From Bacillota bacterium (GTDB taxonomy: Bacteria > Bacillota_I > Bacilli_A > Erysipelotrichales > Erysipelotrichaceae), in the NCBI GenBank assembly GCA_029097145.1, contig JAQXNC010000023.1:1-38790 (forward strand): a stretch of DNA of 38,790 nucleotides. The letters are read 5' to 3'. Shown in pieces: positions 18,069 to 35,545 of the stretch. The notes beneath the pieces are model-generated. The model did no database searches, was not told the DNA's origin, and saw only the letters and a program-made list of their open reading frames with translations. How positions within the stretch are numbered: position 1 is the stretch's first letter; every line of letters begins with the position of its first letter. Both the position numbers and the translations under genes were made by a program.

Positions 18069-20567
18069 ATGAGTGATAATAAGCAGAATAAAAAACTGAC
18101 TATTGGCCTTTTGGCACATGTAGATGCTGGGAAGACTTCGCTCTCTGAGAGCATCTTATATGAAAGTGGAGCTATCAGAAAAAGTGGTCGAGTTGATCAT
18201 CAGGATTCATTTTTTGATTTTGACAGACAGGAACGTGACCGTGGAATCACAATCTTCTCCAAGCAGGCTGTCTTTGAATATGAAGATACAACTTTCTATA
18301 TGATAGATACACCAGGACATGTCGACTTCTCATGTGAAATGGAAAGAACTTTATCGGTTTTGGATGTCGCTGTTTTAGTGATTAATGGACAATCAGGAGT
18401 AGAGGCTCATACATCAGTTATTTATAGGCTGCTTCAGACATATCATATTCCAGTCTTTATCTTTGTGAATAAGATGGATATTGCCTATGCGTCTAAGGAT
18501 GCATTGTTTGCGTCAATAAAAAAAGATCTGAAAGCTAATCTTGTAAACTTTGAAGCTCAGAATCTCTATGAAGAAGTGGCTATGTATGATGATCATCTGC
18601 TAGAGAGATATCTTGAAGGCGATATGAATGATGAAGATGTCATCAGAATGGTTAATGAATGTCAGATAATTCCAGTTTGTTTTGGTTCAGCCTTAAAAAA
18701 TGAAGGTGTAAAGAGAATGCTGGATATGATTGTCAAATATGTAATGCCAAAGAAATATGATGATGAATTCAGTGCCTATGTCTATAAAATTACTCATATC
18801 AATAATACCAGACTGGCTTTTGTAAAGATTAATGGTGGCAAAGTCAGGGTTAAAAGTCAGATTAATGATGAAAAGATTGATGAGATAAGGCTATATAACG
18901 GGCTTAAATTCAGTAATCTTGAATATGCTTCAGCTGGCGATATCTGTGCCTTTAAGGGTTTAAAGAATGTTTTGACAGGTGATACACTTGGTAAAAAGAC
19001 AAATGAACATCATCTCAATCTTGAACCATATCTTAAATATATGATTATTATTAATGATAATACTGATATCAAGGTATTATACGCTAAAATGAAGGAACTT
19101 GAGGATGAAGATCCTAAATTGAATCTCTTGGTTGATAATGATCATATTTATATTTCTTTGATGGGAGAAATCCAAAAAGAAATACTGAAGAAGATGGTTT
19201 ATGACAGATTTAATATCGATATCAGTTTTGATAATCCGATTATCAGTTATAAAGAAACCATAAAGGATACAGTTATTGGGATTGGACATTTTGAACCACT
19301 AAGGCATTATGCAGAAGTTCATCTTTTATTAGAACCGCTCAAAAGAGGAAGTGGTGTAGAAATTGAAAATAAGTGTATCAGTGACAGTCTGCCTTTGAAT
19401 TATCAAAGACAGGTTATCTCATTACTTTCAAGTCGTGAACATCGAGGTATCTTAACCAATTCACCCCTGACAGATATCAGAATCAGTCTTTTAAATGGTA
19501 AAGCTCATTTAAAACATACTGAAGGTGGTGACTTTATGGAAGCGACATATCGTGCCTTAAGACAGGGCCTTACCAAGGCGACTTCAGAAATACTTGAACC
19601 TTACTGTGAATTTGTCTTAAAGGTTAAGGAAGAATATATGTCTAAAGCCATATTTGACCTTGAACGTTTCCATGCGACACATACTTACAGTATCGATGAT
19701 GGTGAAGTGACATTCAGAGGGAAATCACCGCTTAGACTGATCATGAACTATAGCCGTGAAGTAGTGGCTTATACAAAGGGTACCGGTTCTTTTTACTATA
19801 GTTTCAAGGAATATGATAAAGCTTTTGATGAAGAAGAAATCATTAAAGAAAAAGCCTACGACTTTAAAAGAGATACAGATAATCCAGCCGGATCAATCTT
19901 CTGTGCTAATGGAGCAGGTTACTATGTAGACTATGATGAGGTTGATGAAAAAGCTCATCTTAATGACGATTATTTCAGTGAGAATACCCATACAAATAAC
20001 TATAATCCAGTCAAGATATCTGATGAGGAACTGGAAAGAATATTTGAGAGATCTAATCCTGTTAAAAAAGATAAGACATATATCTCTAAAGATAAGAAGA
20101 ACATTAAATACAAGAGTAAGGACAGTGGGTTAAAACCGATATGTTATGTGATTGATGGATATAATGTGATTCATTCAGATGAGTATCTAAAGAGTATTGC
20201 CAAGGAATCTATCGCAGATGCAAGAGATGCTTTTGTCGATATGGTATGTAACTTTAAACCGATAAAGAATGCTAGAATGATTGTGGTATTTGATGCCTAT
20301 AAACGTGATGAGGCGATGCATAAAAAGAAATATGATGGGATTGATGTCATATATACGAGCTATCAGATGACAGCAGATGCCTATATTGAAAAGAGTATCA
20401 AGGAACTGAACAGAGATTATCGGGTCTATGTCGTATCATCAGATTCTCTGATACAAAACGCTATCTTTTCACAATCAGCTTTTAGGGTATCATCAAAGAC
20501 CTTTATGTCAGAAATGAATCGAACATTATCAAGGATGTCTAGTGAGATAAGCAGCAAGACTTATTAG
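18069..20567 (+). CDS. Tet(M)/EF-G-like ribosomal GTPase fused to a Rae1/YacP-like NYN nuclease
   Basis: 832 residues. Residues 1 to about 640 form a translational GTPase of the ribosomal-protection type: G1 AHVDAGKTS, G2 RGIT, G3 DTPGH, G4 NKMD, G5 GSA, then the EF-G-like later domains ending in the CANGAGYYVDYDEV region. A charged linker (about 640-690) follows. Residues 691-832 are a YacP/Rae1-type NYN domain: VIDGYN, ADARD, VVFDA, TADAYIEK and VSSDSLIQ, with both acidic positions expected of the Rae1 active site. In B. subtilis Rae1 cuts mRNA in the ribosomal A site. Tet(M) relatives bind the A-site region, so the fusion could bring the nuclease to that site (inference). Tetracycline resistance itself is not shown. 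Confidence 0.85.
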   Translation: MSDNKQNKKLTIGLLAHVDAGKTSLSESILYESGAIRKSGRVDHQDSFFDFDRQERDRGITIFSKQAVFEYEDTTFYMIDTPGHVDFSCEMERTLSVLDVAVLVINGQSGVEAHTSVIYRLLQTYHIPVFIFVNKMDIAYASKDALFASIKKDLKANLVNFEAQNLYEEVAMYDDHLLERYLEGDMNDEDVIRMVNECQIIPVCFGSALKNEGVKRMLDMIVKYVMPKKYDDEFSAYVYKITHINNTRLAFVKINGGKVRVKSQINDEKIDEIRLYNGLKFSNLEYASAGDICAFKGLKNVLTGDTLGKKTNEHHLNLEPYLKYMIIINDNTDIKVLYAKMKELEDEDPKLNLLVDNDHIYISLMGEIQKEILKKMVYDRFNIDISFDNPIISYKETIKDTVIGIGHFEPLRHYAEVHLLLEPLKRGSGVEIENKCISDSLPLNYQRQVISLLSSREHRGILTNSPLTDIRISLLNGKAHLKHTEGGDFMEATYRALRQGLTKATSEILEPYCEFVLKVKEEYMSKAIFDLERFHATHTYSIDDGEVTFRGKSPLRLIMNYSREVVAYTKGTGSFYYSFKEYDKAFDEEEIIKEKAYDFKRDTDNPAGSIFCANGAGYYVDYDEVDEKAHLNDDYFSENTHTNNYNPVKISDEELERIFERSNPVKKDKTYISKDKKNIKYKSKDSGLKPICYVIDGYNVIHSDEYLKSIAKESIADARDAFVDMVCNFKPIKNARMIVVFDAYKRDEAMHKKKYDGIDVIYTSYQMTADAYIEKSIKELNRDYRVYVVSSDSLIQNAIFSQSAFRVSSKTFMSEMNRTLSRMSSEISSKTY

Positions 20568-27885: not shown

Positions 27886-27914
27886 ATTATATATCAAATA
27901 CAATTAATGTATAA
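27886..27914 (-). promoter_or_regulatory. rarA promoter, probably leaderless
   Basis: The minus-strand TATAAT (27891-27886) is six bases from the ATG at 27879. A weak -35 (TTATAC, 27914-27909) lies 17 bases upstream and overlaps the -10 of the opposite-strand promoter at 27910-27915. Confidence 0.5.
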
Positions 27915-27915
27915 T
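27910..27915 (+). promoter_or_regulatory. -10 box of the pantothenate/CoA operon
   Basis: A TATAAT at 27910-27915 implies a start near 27922 and a 5' leader of about 117 bases. The -35 at 27887-27892 (TTATAT) is weak. Confidence 0.5.
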
Positions 27916-27921
27916 AGTATT

Positions 27922-28038
27922 GTTCTGTTAAAGGTGATGTTTATCAGATCAGACTTATGCTGATACTGATAATACGACATCATCCTTAAACTGATCCATA
28001 AGCATTGTATTTCGCAAGAAAACGATAGGGGAGGAAAA
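27922..28038 (+). ncRNA. Structured leader RNA with predicted pseudoknot, candidate riboswitch
   Basis: P1 is 27931-27940 with 27977-27987 (10 bp, one bulged U). P2 stacks above it: 27941-27947 with 27966-27972 (7 bp), then 27948-27952 with 27960-27964 (5 bp). The 7-base loop 27953-27959 contains CUUAUG, which is complementary to CAUAAG at 27997-28002 (6-bp pseudoknot). P3 is 28004-28013 with 28018-28026, closed by a GCAA tetraloop with one bulged A. The AGGGGAGG ribosome site begins two bases later. It does not match the riboswitch consensus sequences I know. The ligand is unknown; given the genes, pantothenate or CoA is the obvious guess. Confidence 0.6.
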
Positions 28039-28644
28039 ATGAATCATAATATCAGAAGATTTAGTTATCTTTGCTTATTTGTGACGATTGAGGTCATACT
28101 TGGAATTGTGCCTTTTCTGGGTTTTGTCCCAATCGGTTTAATTAACGCAACTACTATGCATATTCCAGTTATTCTATCTGGGATAATGCTCGGTCCAAAA
28201 GAAGGAATGATAACAGGTTTTGTCTTTGGATTGATGTCTATGATTAAGTCAACTATTAATCCAACACCGACATCATTTCTGTTTAGCCCTTTTTATTCAA
28301 TTAATGGTTTAAGTGGCAGTATGATATCACTCTTGATTGCCTTTGGACCAAGAATTCTGATTGGTTTTGTATCAGGATATACATATAGACTGCTTAAGAA
28401 GAAAGAAAATATCGCAGTGATGGTCTCATCTTTTCTGGGGTCACTTACAAATACAGCTCTTGTCATGACGCTGACATATATTTTCTTTAAGGATGCCTAT
28501 GCCTTGGCTATATCCAAGTCAGTTGATGCGATTGCCTATTTTATCATAACGGTCATTATGACCAATGGTGTAGCTGAAGCTTTTCTGGCAGTTGTCATAG
28601 TACTGATGGTGTATAAGGCTACAAAGAAAATGATTAAACTTTAG
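28039..28644 (+). CDS. ECF transporter substrate-binding component, probably pantothenate (PanT-like)
   Basis: 201 residues with about six membrane helices. The sequence is typical of ECF S components of the DUF3816 kind (GFVPIGLINATTMHIPVILSG, INPTPTSFLFSPF). The vitamin is inferred from context: the next two genes are coaBC and coaX, which start from pantothenate, and no pantothenate synthesis gene is seen here. The shared ECF energising module (EcfA/A'/T) is not in the window, as usual. Ribosome site AGGGGAGG. Folate and queuosine precursor transporters have different signatures. Confidence 0.8.
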   Translation: MNHNIRRFSYLCLFVTIEVILGIVPFLGFVPIGLINATTMHIPVILSGIMLGPKEGMITGFVFGLMSMIKSTINPTPTSFLFSPFYSINGLSGSMISLLIAFGPRILIGFVSGYTYRLLKKKENIAVMVSSFLGSLTNTALVMTLTYIFFKDAYALAISKSVDAIAYFIITVIMTNGVAEAFLAVVIVLMVYKATKKMIKL

Positions 28645-28655
28645 GAGGATTTTTA

Positions 28656-29834
28656 ATGAAAAAAACAATTGTAGTGGGGGTGAGCAGTTCAATAGCGGCT
28701 TATAAAAGTGCCGATCTTGTCAGTAAGCTTCTGAAGAAGGGTTATGATGTTGAAGTCATTATGACTAAAAACGCTACTGAATTTATCACACCATTAACTT
28801 TTTCATCTTTGACAAAACATAAAACATGTGTCGATACCTTTGACCGTAATGTTCAATATGATGTTGAACATATATCTTTAGCTAAAAAGGCTGATCTCTT
28901 TATTATTGCGCCAGCTACAGCCAATATTATTGCCAAGGTTGCAAATGGTATCGCTGATGATATGCTTTCAACAACATTCCTGGCATCAAAATGTCCAAAG
29001 ATTATCGCACCAGCCATGAATACGGCAATGTATGAAAATCCGATTACAGAGGATAATCTAAAGAAGTTAAGAAATTATGGTGTAGCGATTGTTGAACCTG
29101 ATAATGGGCTTCTGGCTTGTGGTGATACAGGTAAGGGACGTCTTGCGGATATTGAAACACTTCTTGATGCGATTGATGAACATATTCATATCGATAAACC
29201 TTTAAAGGGTAAGAAGGTTATAGTCAGTGCTGGTCCAACAATTGAAAAAATTGATCCTGTGAGATATATTACCAATCATTCAACAGGCAAGATGGGATAT
29301 GCAATTGCAGAAGCTGCCAGAAATATGGGGGCTGATGTCACGCTTGTCAGTGGTAAGACTAACTTAAGAGTTCCATCAAATATCACCTTTATTCAGATTG
29401 AATCAGCTAAAGAGATGTTTGAAGCGATTAAGAATATCTATGATGAAGCTGATTATGTCATTAAATCAGCAGCTGTCGCTGACTTTAGGCCAAAGGTGGA
29501 AGCTTTAAACAAGATTAAGAAAGAAGATTCAAATGGAGTTATTGAACTGGAGAGAACTGACGATATCTTAGCTTATCTTGGAAGCCATAAGACACATCAG
29601 AAACTCTGTGGTTTTGCGATGGAAACAGAAAACGTACTGAATAATGCCAAAGAAAAACTGCTTAAGAAGAACTGTGATATGCTGGTTTTAAATAATCTCA
29701 GAACTGAAGGCGCTGGTTTTGGGGTAGATACCAATGTCGTGACAGTTCTCACAAAAGAAAATACAGAAGAACTGGAATGCATGCCTAAAAAAGATTTGGC
29801 ATATATCATTCTGGAAAAATTGATGGAGGTATAG
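28656..29834 (+). CDS. coaBC: Phosphopantothenoylcysteine synthetase/decarboxylase
   Basis: 392 residues with both halves. CoaC (about 1-180), the FMN-dependent decarboxylase, shows GVSSSIAAYKSADL, the PAMNTAMYENP motif and ACGDTGKGR. CoaB (about 185-392), the synthetase, shows SAGPTIEKIDPVRYITNHS and KKNCDMLVLNN. Together they turn 4'-phosphopantothenate and cysteine into 4'-phosphopantetheine. An AGGAGG ribosome site precedes it. It lies between the pantothenate transporter and kinase genes. Confidence 0.95.
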   Translation: MKKTIVVGVSSSIAAYKSADLVSKLLKKGYDVEVIMTKNATEFITPLTFSSLTKHKTCVDTFDRNVQYDVEHISLAKKADLFIIAPATANIIAKVANGIADDMLSTTFLASKCPKIIAPAMNTAMYENPITEDNLKKLRNYGVAIVEPDNGLLACGDTGKGRLADIETLLDAIDEHIHIDKPLKGKKVIVSAGPTIEKIDPVRYITNHSTGKMGYAIAEAARNMGADVTLVSGKTNLRVPSNITFIQIESAKEMFEAIKNIYDEADYVIKSAAVADFRPKVEALNKIKKEDSNGVIELERTDDILAYLGSHKTHQKLCGFAMETENVLNNAKEKLLKKNCDMLVLNNLRTEGAGFGVDTNVVTVLTKENTEELECMPKKDLAYIILEKLMEV

Positions 29835-29839
29835 CGAGA

Positions 29840-30607
29840 ATGTTGCTGGTAGCGGATATAGGTAATACAAATATAACTTTTGGAATTTATGATGGTGATA
29901 AACTGGTTGGTACATATCGTTTAACCACATGGTTTAAAAGAACCAGTGATGAATATGGTTTTATGATATTAAACTTCTTAAATGCTTCAGGTGTTAGAAC
30001 TGATGAGATTGATGATGTGATAATTGCCTCGGTTGTACCAAAGATTATGCACTCATTCACTAATTCGATTCGTAAGTATATTAAAAAAGAACCAATCATT
30101 GTTGGTCCAGGTATTAAAACAGGCATCAAGATTAAATATGATAATCCTAAGGAAGTTGGTGCTGATAGAATTGTTGATGCGGTTGGAGCGCATTATACGT
30201 ATGGTGGTGATGTTTTGGTTGTTGATTTTGGTACAGCGACAACCTTTGAAATCATAGATGAAAGTGGTACTTACCGTGGGGGATCAATCGCCCCAGGTAT
30301 TCAGATTTGTGCTGAAGCTCTATCTTCAAAAACTGCCAAACTGCCAGAAATTGAAATTAAACCAACAGAAACGATTATCACAACCAACACCATTCAGGCT
30401 ATGCAGTCAGGTGTCTTTTATGGATATATCGGTCTTTGCGAATATCTGATAGATAAGTGCATCAAGGAATTTGGTAAGGATATGAAGGTTATTGCGACTG
30501 GTGGACTTGGACGCACAATTTCAAAATATACTGACAAAATCGATATCTATGATCCTGATTTAACATTTAAGGGATTAAAGATTATCTATGATAAAAACCG
30601 TGCCTAG
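29840..30607 (+). CDS. coaX: Type III pantothenate kinase
   Basis: 255 residues of the CoaX (acetate-kinase-like fold) family: phosphate motif DIGNTNITFGIYDG, VDFGTATTFEIID with the catalytic Asp, GADRIVDAVGAHYTYG and GGSIAPG. It phosphorylates pantothenate, the first step of CoA synthesis, and is not feedback-inhibited by CoA in characterised members. That leaves control to uptake or transcription, consistent with a regulated leader on this operon (inference). Its stop shares a CTAG with the stop of the convergent gene. Confidence 0.95.
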   Translation: MLLVADIGNTNITFGIYDGDKLVGTYRLTTWFKRTSDEYGFMILNFLNASGVRTDEIDDVIIASVVPKIMHSFTNSIRKYIKKEPIIVGPGIKTGIKIKYDNPKEVGADRIVDAVGAHYTYGGDVLVVDFGTATTFEIIDESGTYRGGSIAPGIQICAEALSSKTAKLPEIEIKPTETIITTNTIQAMQSGVFYGYIGLCEYLIDKCIKEFGKDMKVIATGGLGRTISKYTDKIDIYDPDLTFKGLKIIYDKNRA

Positions 30608-31698
30608 TGGTTTAAAAAGAGATATAAATATTTAATTGATGGTAGAGTAGCTATGATGGGATACTCTGCCTTTTTTATTTCTTTACTGATCCAGACTGCA
30701 TCAAGATTGGCGTTATATGCTCCTTTGATATCGCTGCTGATACTATCACCAATGACAAGAATCTTGGTTTTATCCTTTTCTTCAATATGGTCTAATACAT
30801 ATTCGAAATAATTTACAGATGGTTTTTCAAAACCAATTTCTTCAGAAATAAAGAGCTCTTCAAAATAGTTATTCAGGTCAGTTGAAGATATTCTTGATAT
30901 CTGAGTAGTCTTGACACCGTTTGTGATAATTGCGATATGGTAGTGTTCATTTAGTTCCTTCATGGCTTTTCTGGCACCTTCAATATAATCATTTCGATGT
31001 GATAATTCTTCTTTATATTCTTCGCCACAGAGAGGTCCGATATCTTCATTCATGTGAAGCTCTCTAAAAGTCAAAGTGAAACGCTGACGACTCATTTCAT
31101 CTTTGGTGATAAGTCCATCTTCAATTTCTTTCCACAACATTTTATTAATACGTTTATATGTTTCAAAGAAAGTGTCATTATATTCAAGGTTATGTTTCTT
31201 AATGACATTCACAAAAGAAATATACTCACCAAGATCAAAGTCAAAGATGGTGTTATCAAGGTCAATCAGTAATGTTGAATAGTCATGTTTAGTTAACCAT
31301 GGATTAAGGCACATATAGACATATTCACTGATTTCACCAACATCACCATCGACAGTCTTACCATCATAGTTTCTGATTTCAGAGCTGATAATTTCTTTAT
31401 TTAATTCTTCAATAAATTCATTTTCAGATTCAATCATCTTTTGATCAAAGGAAAGATTGATACATCTGACATTAGTATTGATACTATCGATTATAGCTCC
31501 TGAGAAAAGACCATAAACTAACGATTTATCATGGTTATTAAGTGATGGTTTAAGGTATTTTAAAAGAATATCATAAGGGTTATCGTAATTGATTAGATAA
31601 GAAAAGATACACCCTTTAAGGAGCGTTTGATATTCTAAAGTATTTATTCTGTCAAATAGATTGTCGATTACTTTTTTATGTAGATACCAGTTATGCAT
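30604..31698 (-). CDS. YjjG-like HAD nucleotidase with a novel N-terminal extension
   Basis: 364 residues from ATG 31698, which has GAGGTG six bases upstream; an ATG 11 codons earlier lacks a ribosome site. Residues about 141-364 are a complete HAD phosphatase of the YjjG type: LLIDLDNTIFDFD (nucleophile Asp), IITNGV, FEKPSVNYFEYVL with its Lys, and VIGDSISSDIKGA. YjjG dephosphorylates noncanonical pyrimidine nucleotides. The first 140 residues are helical and unrecognised; ordinary YjjG proteins are about 225 residues and lack them. They might be a regulatory or partner-binding domain. Confidence 0.8.
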   Translation of the reverse strand: MHNWYLHKKVIDNLFDRINTLEYQTLLKGCIFSYLINYDNPYDILLKYLKPSLNNHDKSLVYGLFSGAIIDSINTNVRCINLSFDQKMIESENEFIEELNKEIISSEIRNYDGKTVDGDVGEISEYVYMCLNPWLTKHDYSTLLIDLDNTIFDFDLGEYISFVNVIKKHNLEYNDTFFETYKRINKMLWKEIEDGLITKDEMSRQRFTLTFRELHMNEDIGPLCGEEYKEELSHRNDYIEGARKAMKELNEHYHIAIITNGVKTTQISRISSTDLNNYFEELFISEEIGFEKPSVNYFEYVLDHIEEKDKTKILVIGDSISSDIKGAYNANLDAVWISKEIKKAEYPIIATLPSIKYLYLFLNH

Positions 31699-31748
31699 TT
31701 TTTTCACCTCATAGTGATTTAAGTGTAGCATAACTAAATAAATAAATT

Positions 31749-33251: not shown

Positions 33252-33278
33252 AGGAATTATCATAAATCGATAATTCCT
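33252..33278 (-). terminator. Terminator around the GGDEF-REC-HD-GYP stop codon
   Basis: AGGAATTATC and GATAATTCCT form a perfect 10-bp stem with a 7-base loop. The minus-strand TGA stop lies at the loop edge, and a T-run follows on the minus strand. On the + strand it lies just after the tRNA. Confidence 0.85.
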
Positions 33279-35545
33279 GTAACACCCAGATAGCGGTTAT
33301 CAGTTTCATTAGACCATACTGCACGGACATGACATGTGCATTTAATATCGCCTTTTTTTGTGTGCATATTGATTGTAATATCTTTATCCGGATTCATATA
33401 GTCACAAGATTCAAGTTCTTTTGCCCACTTCTTGAAAGACATATCTGACAGCTTTAAGAGCGTATCATCATTGAGCGGATCGATGATTGATTCACTGACA
33501 CCAAACAGTTCAGCCAGAGGTGGTGAAAGTGAAAGAACACTGCTGGTAACACGATAGTCGAAAGTATATCTTGCCTTTTTCTCAGCGAGGAAGTCACTGC
33601 GGTTTTTCTCAAACCAGTATTTAAGAATAATCTTATTAGAAATAGAACTATTTGAAATCTCGTGTAATTCTTCCATGAGATGTGTCGTCTGTCGCTCTTC
33701 AGAAAGTTTATGAGCATCCTTTGAAAGTCTTGATTTCAGGATATTGCTGATATCATTAAGCGATTCGAGTAACAGTGGATTAAAGGCACCACATTCGCCA
33801 TCCATAATCATTCTGATAGCTGTCTCATGGCTATATGCCTTCTTATAACATCTTTCACTAGTCAGGGCATCATAGACATCAGCTAATGATACAACTTGCG
33901 CTGCAATAGGAATATCTTCACCCTTGAGTCCATCAGGATAACCATTGCCGTCATATCTTTCATGATGCCATCTAGCTATTTCCTTACCCATGATAATCAG
34001 TGGATCATCTTTGAATCCTTCGAGGTTTTCAAGGATTTTTGCACCATCAAGCGCATGTCCTTTCATAATCTCAAATTCTTCAGCTGTTAAACGCCCAGGT
34101 TTATTTAATATTTCATCAGGAATAGTTATCTTACCGATATCATGTAATGATGAAGCCATGCAAATACGATGAATCTCAGTCTGATTGAGATTATAACTGG
34201 TATTCTTCTTCTTTAACTGATTGAGCAAGAGCTCAGTAATGACATTGATATGCAGAATGTGTGGACCGCTTTCGTTATTTCGGAATTCAACGACATGCGA
34301 CAGTATGCTTAACATCATATCATAGTTTGATATCTGCTCCTGTACTTTGTCAGATACCATGGTTGAAAGCAGTTTATTCTTGGTGTAAAGGTTGATGGCA
34401 TTATCAACTCGTCTTAAGACAATCTGGGCATCAAATGGTCGACTGATATAGTCAATAGCGCCAAGGTCATAAGCACGGTTAATGAACTTAGGGTCATTCT
34501 CAGAAGATATGATGATGACAGGTAATATTTCATTCCAGCGATGATCTTTCATATAATCGAGTAAACCGAACCCATCAAGTTCTGGCATTGTCAGATCAAG
34601 TAAGACAAGAGCGAAATCATATTCAGCTTTTCTTAGATATTCGATAGCTTCAAGACCATTGGTAGCCTCATATGTATCATACTTATCTTCAAGAATTGAA
34701 GAGAGAATATCGCGGTTAAGTTCTGAATCATCGACGATTAAAACACTTTGACGGTGACTTGATGAGAGTGTTTCGAGTGACATTAATTCTCTTTCGGTTT
34801 CATCATAGATACAATATCCACCATGTTCGCTCTTTTTAATGAGTTTCATAGCCTGTTTGGCACGATTGAGGCCTTCTTGCGAATATGGAGTATCAGTAAA
34901 TGATATACCAGCACTGCATGATGCCTTAGGCAGATCATCAATTGGATTCAAAAGAGTACTGTTAATTATTGCGATCTTTCTTTTAATAACGTCACTTTCA
35001 TTACGGGTGATATTAGTCATTATAATCAGGAATTCATCACCGCCATAGCGGAAGACATAATCATAACTGCGCAGATTCTGTTTGATGATACCTGATAATT
35101 TCTGTAAGAGTTTATTACCCTTATCATAGCCATATAATTCGTTAATCCTGGAGAATCCATCAATATTAATCAGAACTGTCGCAGAAGGTATATCTTCTGC
35201 AAGGAATCTGTTTTTTGAAAGATCAATATTATTAAAATCAAGAAGTCCAGTTAATGAATCATACTGATTAGATGACATATCTGTTTTAACTGCTGATTCA
35301 TTTTCATCTGTTGTCTTTACAGTTTTGGATTCAATATTATGCGAGATAGCTGTAGGGCTTAAAATATAGATTATGGCATAGATATATCCTGTAAATGTCA
35401 GTAGTAATACAGCTCCAATCATAACAGCTTTATATATATTATCCTCCATTGATATACTTAAAATAACAAAAAGGATAATCAGGAAGATTACCGTTACGGC
35501 TATTATTTTAACAAGACCATTATTTGAATTTTTCTTTGAGAACAT
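33260..35545 (-). CDS. Membrane GGDEF-REC-HD-GYP cyclic-di-GMP signalling protein
   Basis: 761 residues. Two membrane helices (about 11-32 and 38-62) are followed by a GGDEF domain (about 95-250) with GGDEF at 168-172 and an intact inhibitory RxxD (159-162). A response-regulator receiver (about 266-385) has phospho-acceptor Asp317. An HD-GYP phosphodiesterase (about 405-600) has HD at 468-469, HH at 527-528 and GYP at 535-537. A C-terminal PAS-like part (about 640-761) ends the chain. All catalytic motifs look intact, so it should both make and break cyclic di-GMP. No histidine kinase is adjacent. An AGGTG ribosome site lies six bases before the ATG. Confidence 0.88.
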   Translation of the reverse strand: MFSKKNSNNGLVKIIAVTVIFLIILFVILSISMEDNIYKAVMIGAVLLLTFTGYIYAIIYILSPTAISHNIESKTVKTTDENESAVKTDMSSNQYDSLTGLLDFNNIDLSKNRFLAEDIPSATVLINIDGFSRINELYGYDKGNKLLQKLSGIIKQNLRSYDYVFRYGGDEFLIIMTNITRNESDVIKRKIAIINSTLLNPIDDLPKASCSAGISFTDTPYSQEGLNRAKQAMKLIKKSEHGGYCIYDETERELMSLETLSSSHRQSVLIVDDSELNRDILSSILEDKYDTYEATNGLEAIEYLRKAEYDFALVLLDLTMPELDGFGLLDYMKDHRWNEILPVIIISSENDPKFINRAYDLGAIDYISRPFDAQIVLRRVDNAINLYTKNKLLSTMVSDKVQEQISNYDMMLSILSHVVEFRNNESGPHILHINVITELLLNQLKKKNTSYNLNQTEIHRICMASSLHDIGKITIPDEILNKPGRLTAEEFEIMKGHALDGAKILENLEGFKDDPLIIMGKEIARWHHERYDGNGYPDGLKGEDIPIAAQVVSLADVYDALTSERCYKKAYSHETAIRMIMDGECGAFNPLLLESLNDISNILKSRLSKDAHKLSEERQTTHLMEELHEISNSSISNKIILKYWFEKNRSDFLAEKKARYTFDYRVTSSVLSLSPPLAELFGVSESIIDPLNDDTLLKLSDMSFKKWAKELESCDYMNPDKDITINMHTKKGDIKCTCHVRAVWSNETDNRYLGVTGIIDL

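Follow-up and report, generated by a model that had tools for sequence, protein, structure and literature searches.

Comparative sequence analysis identifies the leader of a panT-coaBC-coaX operon, located in the 38,790-nucleotide stretch of DNA analysed here (the window), as a variant of the known orphan pan RNA that has new target genes and occurs in hosts without panB. The element is a real, conserved, regulatory RNA, and its conserved signature is a pair of hairpins carrying bulged adenines, not a pseudoknot. The initial annotation of the window had postulated a structured cis-regulatory RNA of the pantothenate/CoA pathway at this place, and in this it was right, as the element both covaries and is conserved.

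The panT operon and the fold of its leader

The region upstream of panT, between this gene and a divergent rarA-like gene, holds a TATAAT box, then the leader and then panT-coaBC-coaX. The TATAAT (27910–27915, + strand, read in the sequence) probably serves panT as its −10 promoter box and was missed by a promoter consensus scan because no good −35 box lies upstream; transcription is expected to start near 27922, and in nearly all homologous leaders a TATAAT lies 97–137 nt upstream of the Shine–Dalgarno sequence. The panT Shine–Dalgarno sequence (GGGGAGG, 28028–28034, +) is 4 nt upstream of the ATG at 28039. The product of panT (28039–28644, +) is the S (substrate-binding) component of an ECF-type pantothenate transporter, an assignment based on the PF12822 match, on the adjacency of coaBC and coaX and on its nearest solved relatives, 4rfs_S and 6zg3_C, which come from ECF-PanT structures (PDB 4RFS and 6ZG3). 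It is followed by coaBC (28656–29834, +; TIGR00521, 471 bits against a cut-off of 219.7) and by coaX (29840–30607, +), a type III pantothenate kinase gene according to PF03309 and the NCBIfam models for such kinases. No panB was found in the host genome (87% complete) or in its listed relatives, and the gene is present in just one of the 245 genomes of the phylum sample.

Three further genes in the window deserve mention. In an 832-aa frame (18069–20567, +) a ribosomal-protection GTPase of the Tet(M)/EF-G type (residues ~1–588) is fused to a C-terminal YacP-like NYN domain (PF05991, residues 694–829), YacP being Rae1, the ribosome-associated endoribonuclease; the fusion is no assembly artefact, since most of the related genomes searched have near-full-length matches. 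On the minus strand, 33263–35545 encodes a 761-aa protein with GGDEF, response-regulator receiver and HD domains, and 30604–31731 a 375-aa protein in which ~150 residues without a Pfam match precede a YjjG-type nucleotidase domain.

The leader of 117 nt folds with −32.8 kcal/mol (z = −3.9), and none of 200 shuffled sequences folded as well. In the predicted structure (27924–28034) an outer helix, P1, is combined with two tandem hairpins of one design: a basal stem, a 3′-bulged A, exactly 5 bp, a 5′-bulged A, at least one closing pair and a variable loop. P1 (27924–27940/27977–27994, +, from the minimum free energy fold) encloses hairpin 1 (27941–27972, +; UUAUCAG-AUCAG-[A27953]-C-UUAU-G-CUGAU-[A27965]-CUGAUAA), and the two together make up the long stacked hairpin that had been proposed from the sequence. 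Hairpin 1 is supported by the fold, the geometry, the covariation and the R2 alignment described below, and 11 of its 13 pairs have pair probabilities of 0.98–1.00. Hairpin 2 (28003–28028, +; C-AUUGU-[A28009]-UUUC-GCAA-GAAA-ACGAU-[A28027]-G), supported by fold, covariation and R2 alignment, corresponds to what had been described as a 9-bp GCAA-capped hairpin; it does exist, and at the ribosome site, but its helix consists of 5 + 4 bp split by the bulged A28009. In the thermodynamic ensemble its tested pairs above the basal C–G have probabilities of 0.83–0.97 and the basal C–G itself only 0.06; the GGGGAGG ribosome site begins with the terminal G of the hairpin. The bulged adenines are thus 27953 and 28009 on the 5′ sides of hairpins 1 and 2, and 27965 and 28027 on the 3′ sides. 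No terminator was found in the leader by a terminator scan, in line with the initial annotation, and when folding was used to look for sequestration of the ribosome site, the window leader showed no switch.

Conservation and covariation in homologous leaders

Genes resembling panT were present in 58 of 60 related genomes, most of their leaders having both hairpins close to the start codon; in eight panT-like leaders, weak and distant homologues among them, there was one hairpin or none. By a strict geometric scan, 31 of 45 leaders carry the tandem, as against 1% of dinucleotide shuffles (at most 3 of 45 in any shuffled set). As plain MAFFT misplaced hairpin 1 in diverse leaders, modelling started from the leaders of a single family, to which the other leaders were then aligned. 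A 12-leader model already had 14 of 18 pairs changed on both sides, and in a set of 49 leaders this rose to 17 of 18, with 220 doubly changed cells (64.5 in shuffles) and 97.9% of cells paired compared with 31–49% when the register was slid. The 49 rows include one likely false match (L061:2246–2334), which was dropped from the final 47. Because selection by a model favours the structure of that model, 17 weaker matches that had played no part in training R2 were counted separately, and here 93.2% of cells were paired (26–54% with slid register) and 15 of 18 pairs were doubly changed. The covariance model R2 was built from the 47 leaders with the window excluded; its alignment corrects the placement of the window's hairpin 1, which an earlier model, R1, had misaligned.

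Each of the 47 final leaders has an A at every one of the four bulged positions, and these adenines are the only invariant positions, the stems being free in sequence and the loops variable. The distance from hairpin 2 to the Shine–Dalgarno sequence is also kept, and in most homologues just GU or GUA separates the 3′-bulged A of hairpin 2 from GGAGG. Of 30 homologous leaders, 18 showed a pairing of the P1 type between the same two stretches that was better than in 95% of shuffles, though in some homologues the predicted duplex reaches into untranscribed promoter sequence. No conserved anti-Shine–Dalgarno strand was seen when the leaders were inspected by eye. Leaders of one family (f2, e.g. 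L017, L021 and L024) have a conserved AAAUUUAUAGAAA-like stretch in the linker, directly 5′ of hairpin 2, which is complementary to the −10 box region.

The pairing of the hairpin 1 loop with the linker fared differently. The initial annotation had built on it a riboswitch unrelated to known RNAs, with a match thought unlikely to arise by chance. The hexamers are indeed complementary (CUUAUG, 27954–27959, with CAUAAG in the linker), but linker shuffling gives p = 0.07; among homologues just one of 30 leaders reached p ≤ 0.05 (mean p 0.66), and in the four other leaders of the same genus that were tested the loop–linker matches are just 3–4 nt long. We therefore regard the complementarity as chance. 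The search for compensatory changes accordingly had a divided outcome, leaving the hairpins standing and refuting the pseudoknot, and with an architecture that is that of the pan motif a new riboswitch organized around this pseudoknot is barely credible.

Relation to the pan motif and genomic distribution

The pan motif was described in 2010 by Weinberg et al. upstream of panB, panC and panD genes and has been an orphan since (PMC2864571). In the Rfam family RF01749, the consensus given by cmscan is uGG-gcgGU-A-UC..GA-ACcgc-A-CCa for hairpin 1 and CuG-CCUgG-A-UCc..gGA-CcGGG-A-CaG for hairpin 2. The leaders studied here share with it two tandem hairpins, each having 5 bp between a 5′-side and a 3′-side bulged A, a short basal stem, a short closing stem, and a position in the leader of a pantothenate-pathway gene. 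The closing pairs above the 5′-bulged A, often UC/GA in the pan motif, are U–A/C–G or pair-preserving changes of these in most of the leaders; hairpin 1 of the window, like those of same-genus relatives, has a single C–G there instead of UC/GA. They differ from the pan motif in having the extra outer helix P1, which the RF01749 layout lacks, and in lying upstream of panT and coaBC-coaX in hosts without panB rather than upstream of panB, panC or panD.

By score, the Rfam scan that had been proposed for the leader returned no known family. There was no match to RF01749 up to E-values of 5–10 in the window, in 15 relatives or in L045, and none above the cut-off in 392 genomes; for other Rfam families, NAD+-I included, there were only chance-level matches to unrelated families. 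One RF01749 match of 30.3 bits (L052), in an unrelated genome and antisense within an ORF, was set down to chance; it served solely for reading the Rfam consensus. A link in the other direction comes from an Enterococcus faecium plasmid, where a panE-like-panBCD operon carries an RF01749 RNA (41.7 against a gathering score of 36.2). The best R2 match at this locus falls on the same bases (E 0.0026 for the locus alone, 0.041 among 27 sources), and no panB leader was used in training R2. Since the layout matches, RF01749 scores none of the leaders and the genes differ, the element is best placed as a pan-type variant that falls beyond the present limits of RF01749. The view that it forms an unrelated new RNA class is thus not sustained, the architecture being that described in 2010 even though the Rfam model does not score the leader. 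In the literature searched, with most subscription papers outside it, pan RNAs are reported only upstream of panB operons.

R2 matches the window at 27926–28034 (41.9 bits, E 2.7e-6), and on the whole host genome this element is the sole significant match (E 1.2e-4, the next having E 2). At E ≤ 0.1, R1 found a match in 57 of 245 genomes of the order; at E ≤ 0.01, R2 gave 40 matches in 37 of 392 genomes of the phylum (the genome search did not reach Bacillus genomes). All 40 R2 matches lie upstream of panT or of coaBC(-coaX). In five genomes with split operons one copy directly precedes coaBC-coaX and another a separate panT, and beyond the order matches occur in family f12 (panT-coaBC-coaX, then groES-groEL) and family f22 (panT alone), so the link to the pathway is no accident of synteny. 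One f12 genome (G296, locus L129) has two panT genes at a distance of 2.9 kb, both with a pan-type leader of their own, the first being followed by coaBC-coaX and the second by groES-groEL.

A proposed model of feedback control and its implications

The model that we propose, and to which we give somewhat better than even chances, is that the pan-type element feedback-represses pantothenate uptake and CoA synthesis, probably through a protein that reads CoA status. When the supply of pantothenate or CoA is high, both bulged-A hairpins would be bound, the likeliest binder being a pair of subunits of this protein; with hairpin 2 bound, the ribosome would be kept off the panT Shine–Dalgarno sequence and expression of the coaBC-coaX operon lowered. 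With just GU or GUA before GGAGG, anything bound at hairpin 2 would cover the ribosome site, and the placement of the leader supports the action on translation suggested by the initial annotation. A second route may operate in the coaBC leaders of one genus (L083–L085), where hairpin 2 is followed by a terminator (GCCAUUUC..GAAAUGGC plus a U-rich tail). The 5′ arm of this terminator is also able to pair with the 3′ strand of hairpin 2, at −8.8 to −11.1 kcal/mol. As both use this strand, hairpin 2 and the antiterminator are mutually exclusive, and a stabilized hairpin 2 would withhold its 3′ strand from the antiterminator and let the intrinsic terminator form. This logic is clear in three leaders, all of a single genus; in another genus a leader (L087) appears by eye to have a similar terminator-like hairpin, which the scan did not confirm. 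In one further coaBC leader (L086, genome G428) a short reading frame (ATGAAATATAGAAAAG..., 11 codons to TAG) lies between the element with its GGAGG and coaBC, perhaps a leader peptide or a remnant of panT.

The direction of repression, the protein binder and CoA status as the signal are what we infer from these arrangements. Feedback repression follows if a stabilized hairpin 2 means OFF, the direction adopted here; pantothenate/CoA status is a more likely signal than a pantothenate precursor because neither the host nor its listed relatives have panB; and a protein is favoured as binder because invariance is limited to the bulged adenines. The operator hairpins of MS2-type phages offer an analogy, in that a bulged-A hairpin at the ribosome site is read by a dimeric coat protein; like the hairpins here they have a short stem, but the present leaders belong to host metabolic genes and have tandem hairpins with two bulged adenines each. 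We know of no protein reader of pan RNAs.

Binding of a metabolite by the RNA itself, with CoA (or pantothenate, phosphopantothenate or an acyl-CoA) shutting the ribosome site or favouring the terminator, is possible but on balance unlikely. A parallel is the NAD+-I (nadA motif) riboswitch, found in the leaders of cofactor genes, which has two similar tandem bulged domains with the second at the ribosome site (PMC10043782). The studied leaders likewise place their second hairpin at the ribosome site, and it is this likeness that keeps direct reading of CoA in consideration; they differ from NAD+-I in bulges and sequence, have no Rfam match to it, and their binder is putative. Strict association with one pathway also fits a riboswitch, and a CoA class is expected yet none is known (PMC9971707). 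On the other hand, with bulged adenines as sole invariants, free stems and variable loops there is little from which to make a selective aptamer, and Weinberg et al. took the simple tandem layout as suggestive of a site for a dimeric protein (PMC2864571). That pan-type RNAs at large are the missing CoA-responsive riboswitch, their hairpins binding CoA or a close precursor directly and so repressing CoA synthesis along with both the uptake and the synthesis of pantothenate, we hold to be quite doubtful; the variant studied here would make the clearest case for it, because its hosts make no pantothenate.

Autoregulation by the operon, with CoaX or CoaBC binding its own leader when substrate is scarce or abundant, we consider improbable. 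Both are multimeric enzymes, and the element lies upstream of coaBC-coaX with or without panT, as such a scheme would have it. Neither has an RNA-binding domain in a Pfam search, however, and panBCD genes have this layout upstream of them in organisms that probably use other pantothenate kinases.

The position of a pan-type layout upstream of uptake and CoA genes, in hosts without panB, argues for pantothenate or something downstream of it (CoA status) as the signal and against pantoate or β-alanine. Any protein reader of pan RNAs must also be common to the users of panBCD and of panT/coaBC. The type III kinase CoaX is not known to be feedback-inhibited by CoA, and the element would supply the control that a CoA-insensitive enzyme of this type lacks. 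Among the ligands expected to have a riboswitch, CoA has been named as one that is missing (PMC9971707, PMC10043782), which makes the leader a concrete candidate for CoA sensing. The finding sharpens the search for whatever reads pan RNAs and is relevant to the CoA riboswitch that is still missing.
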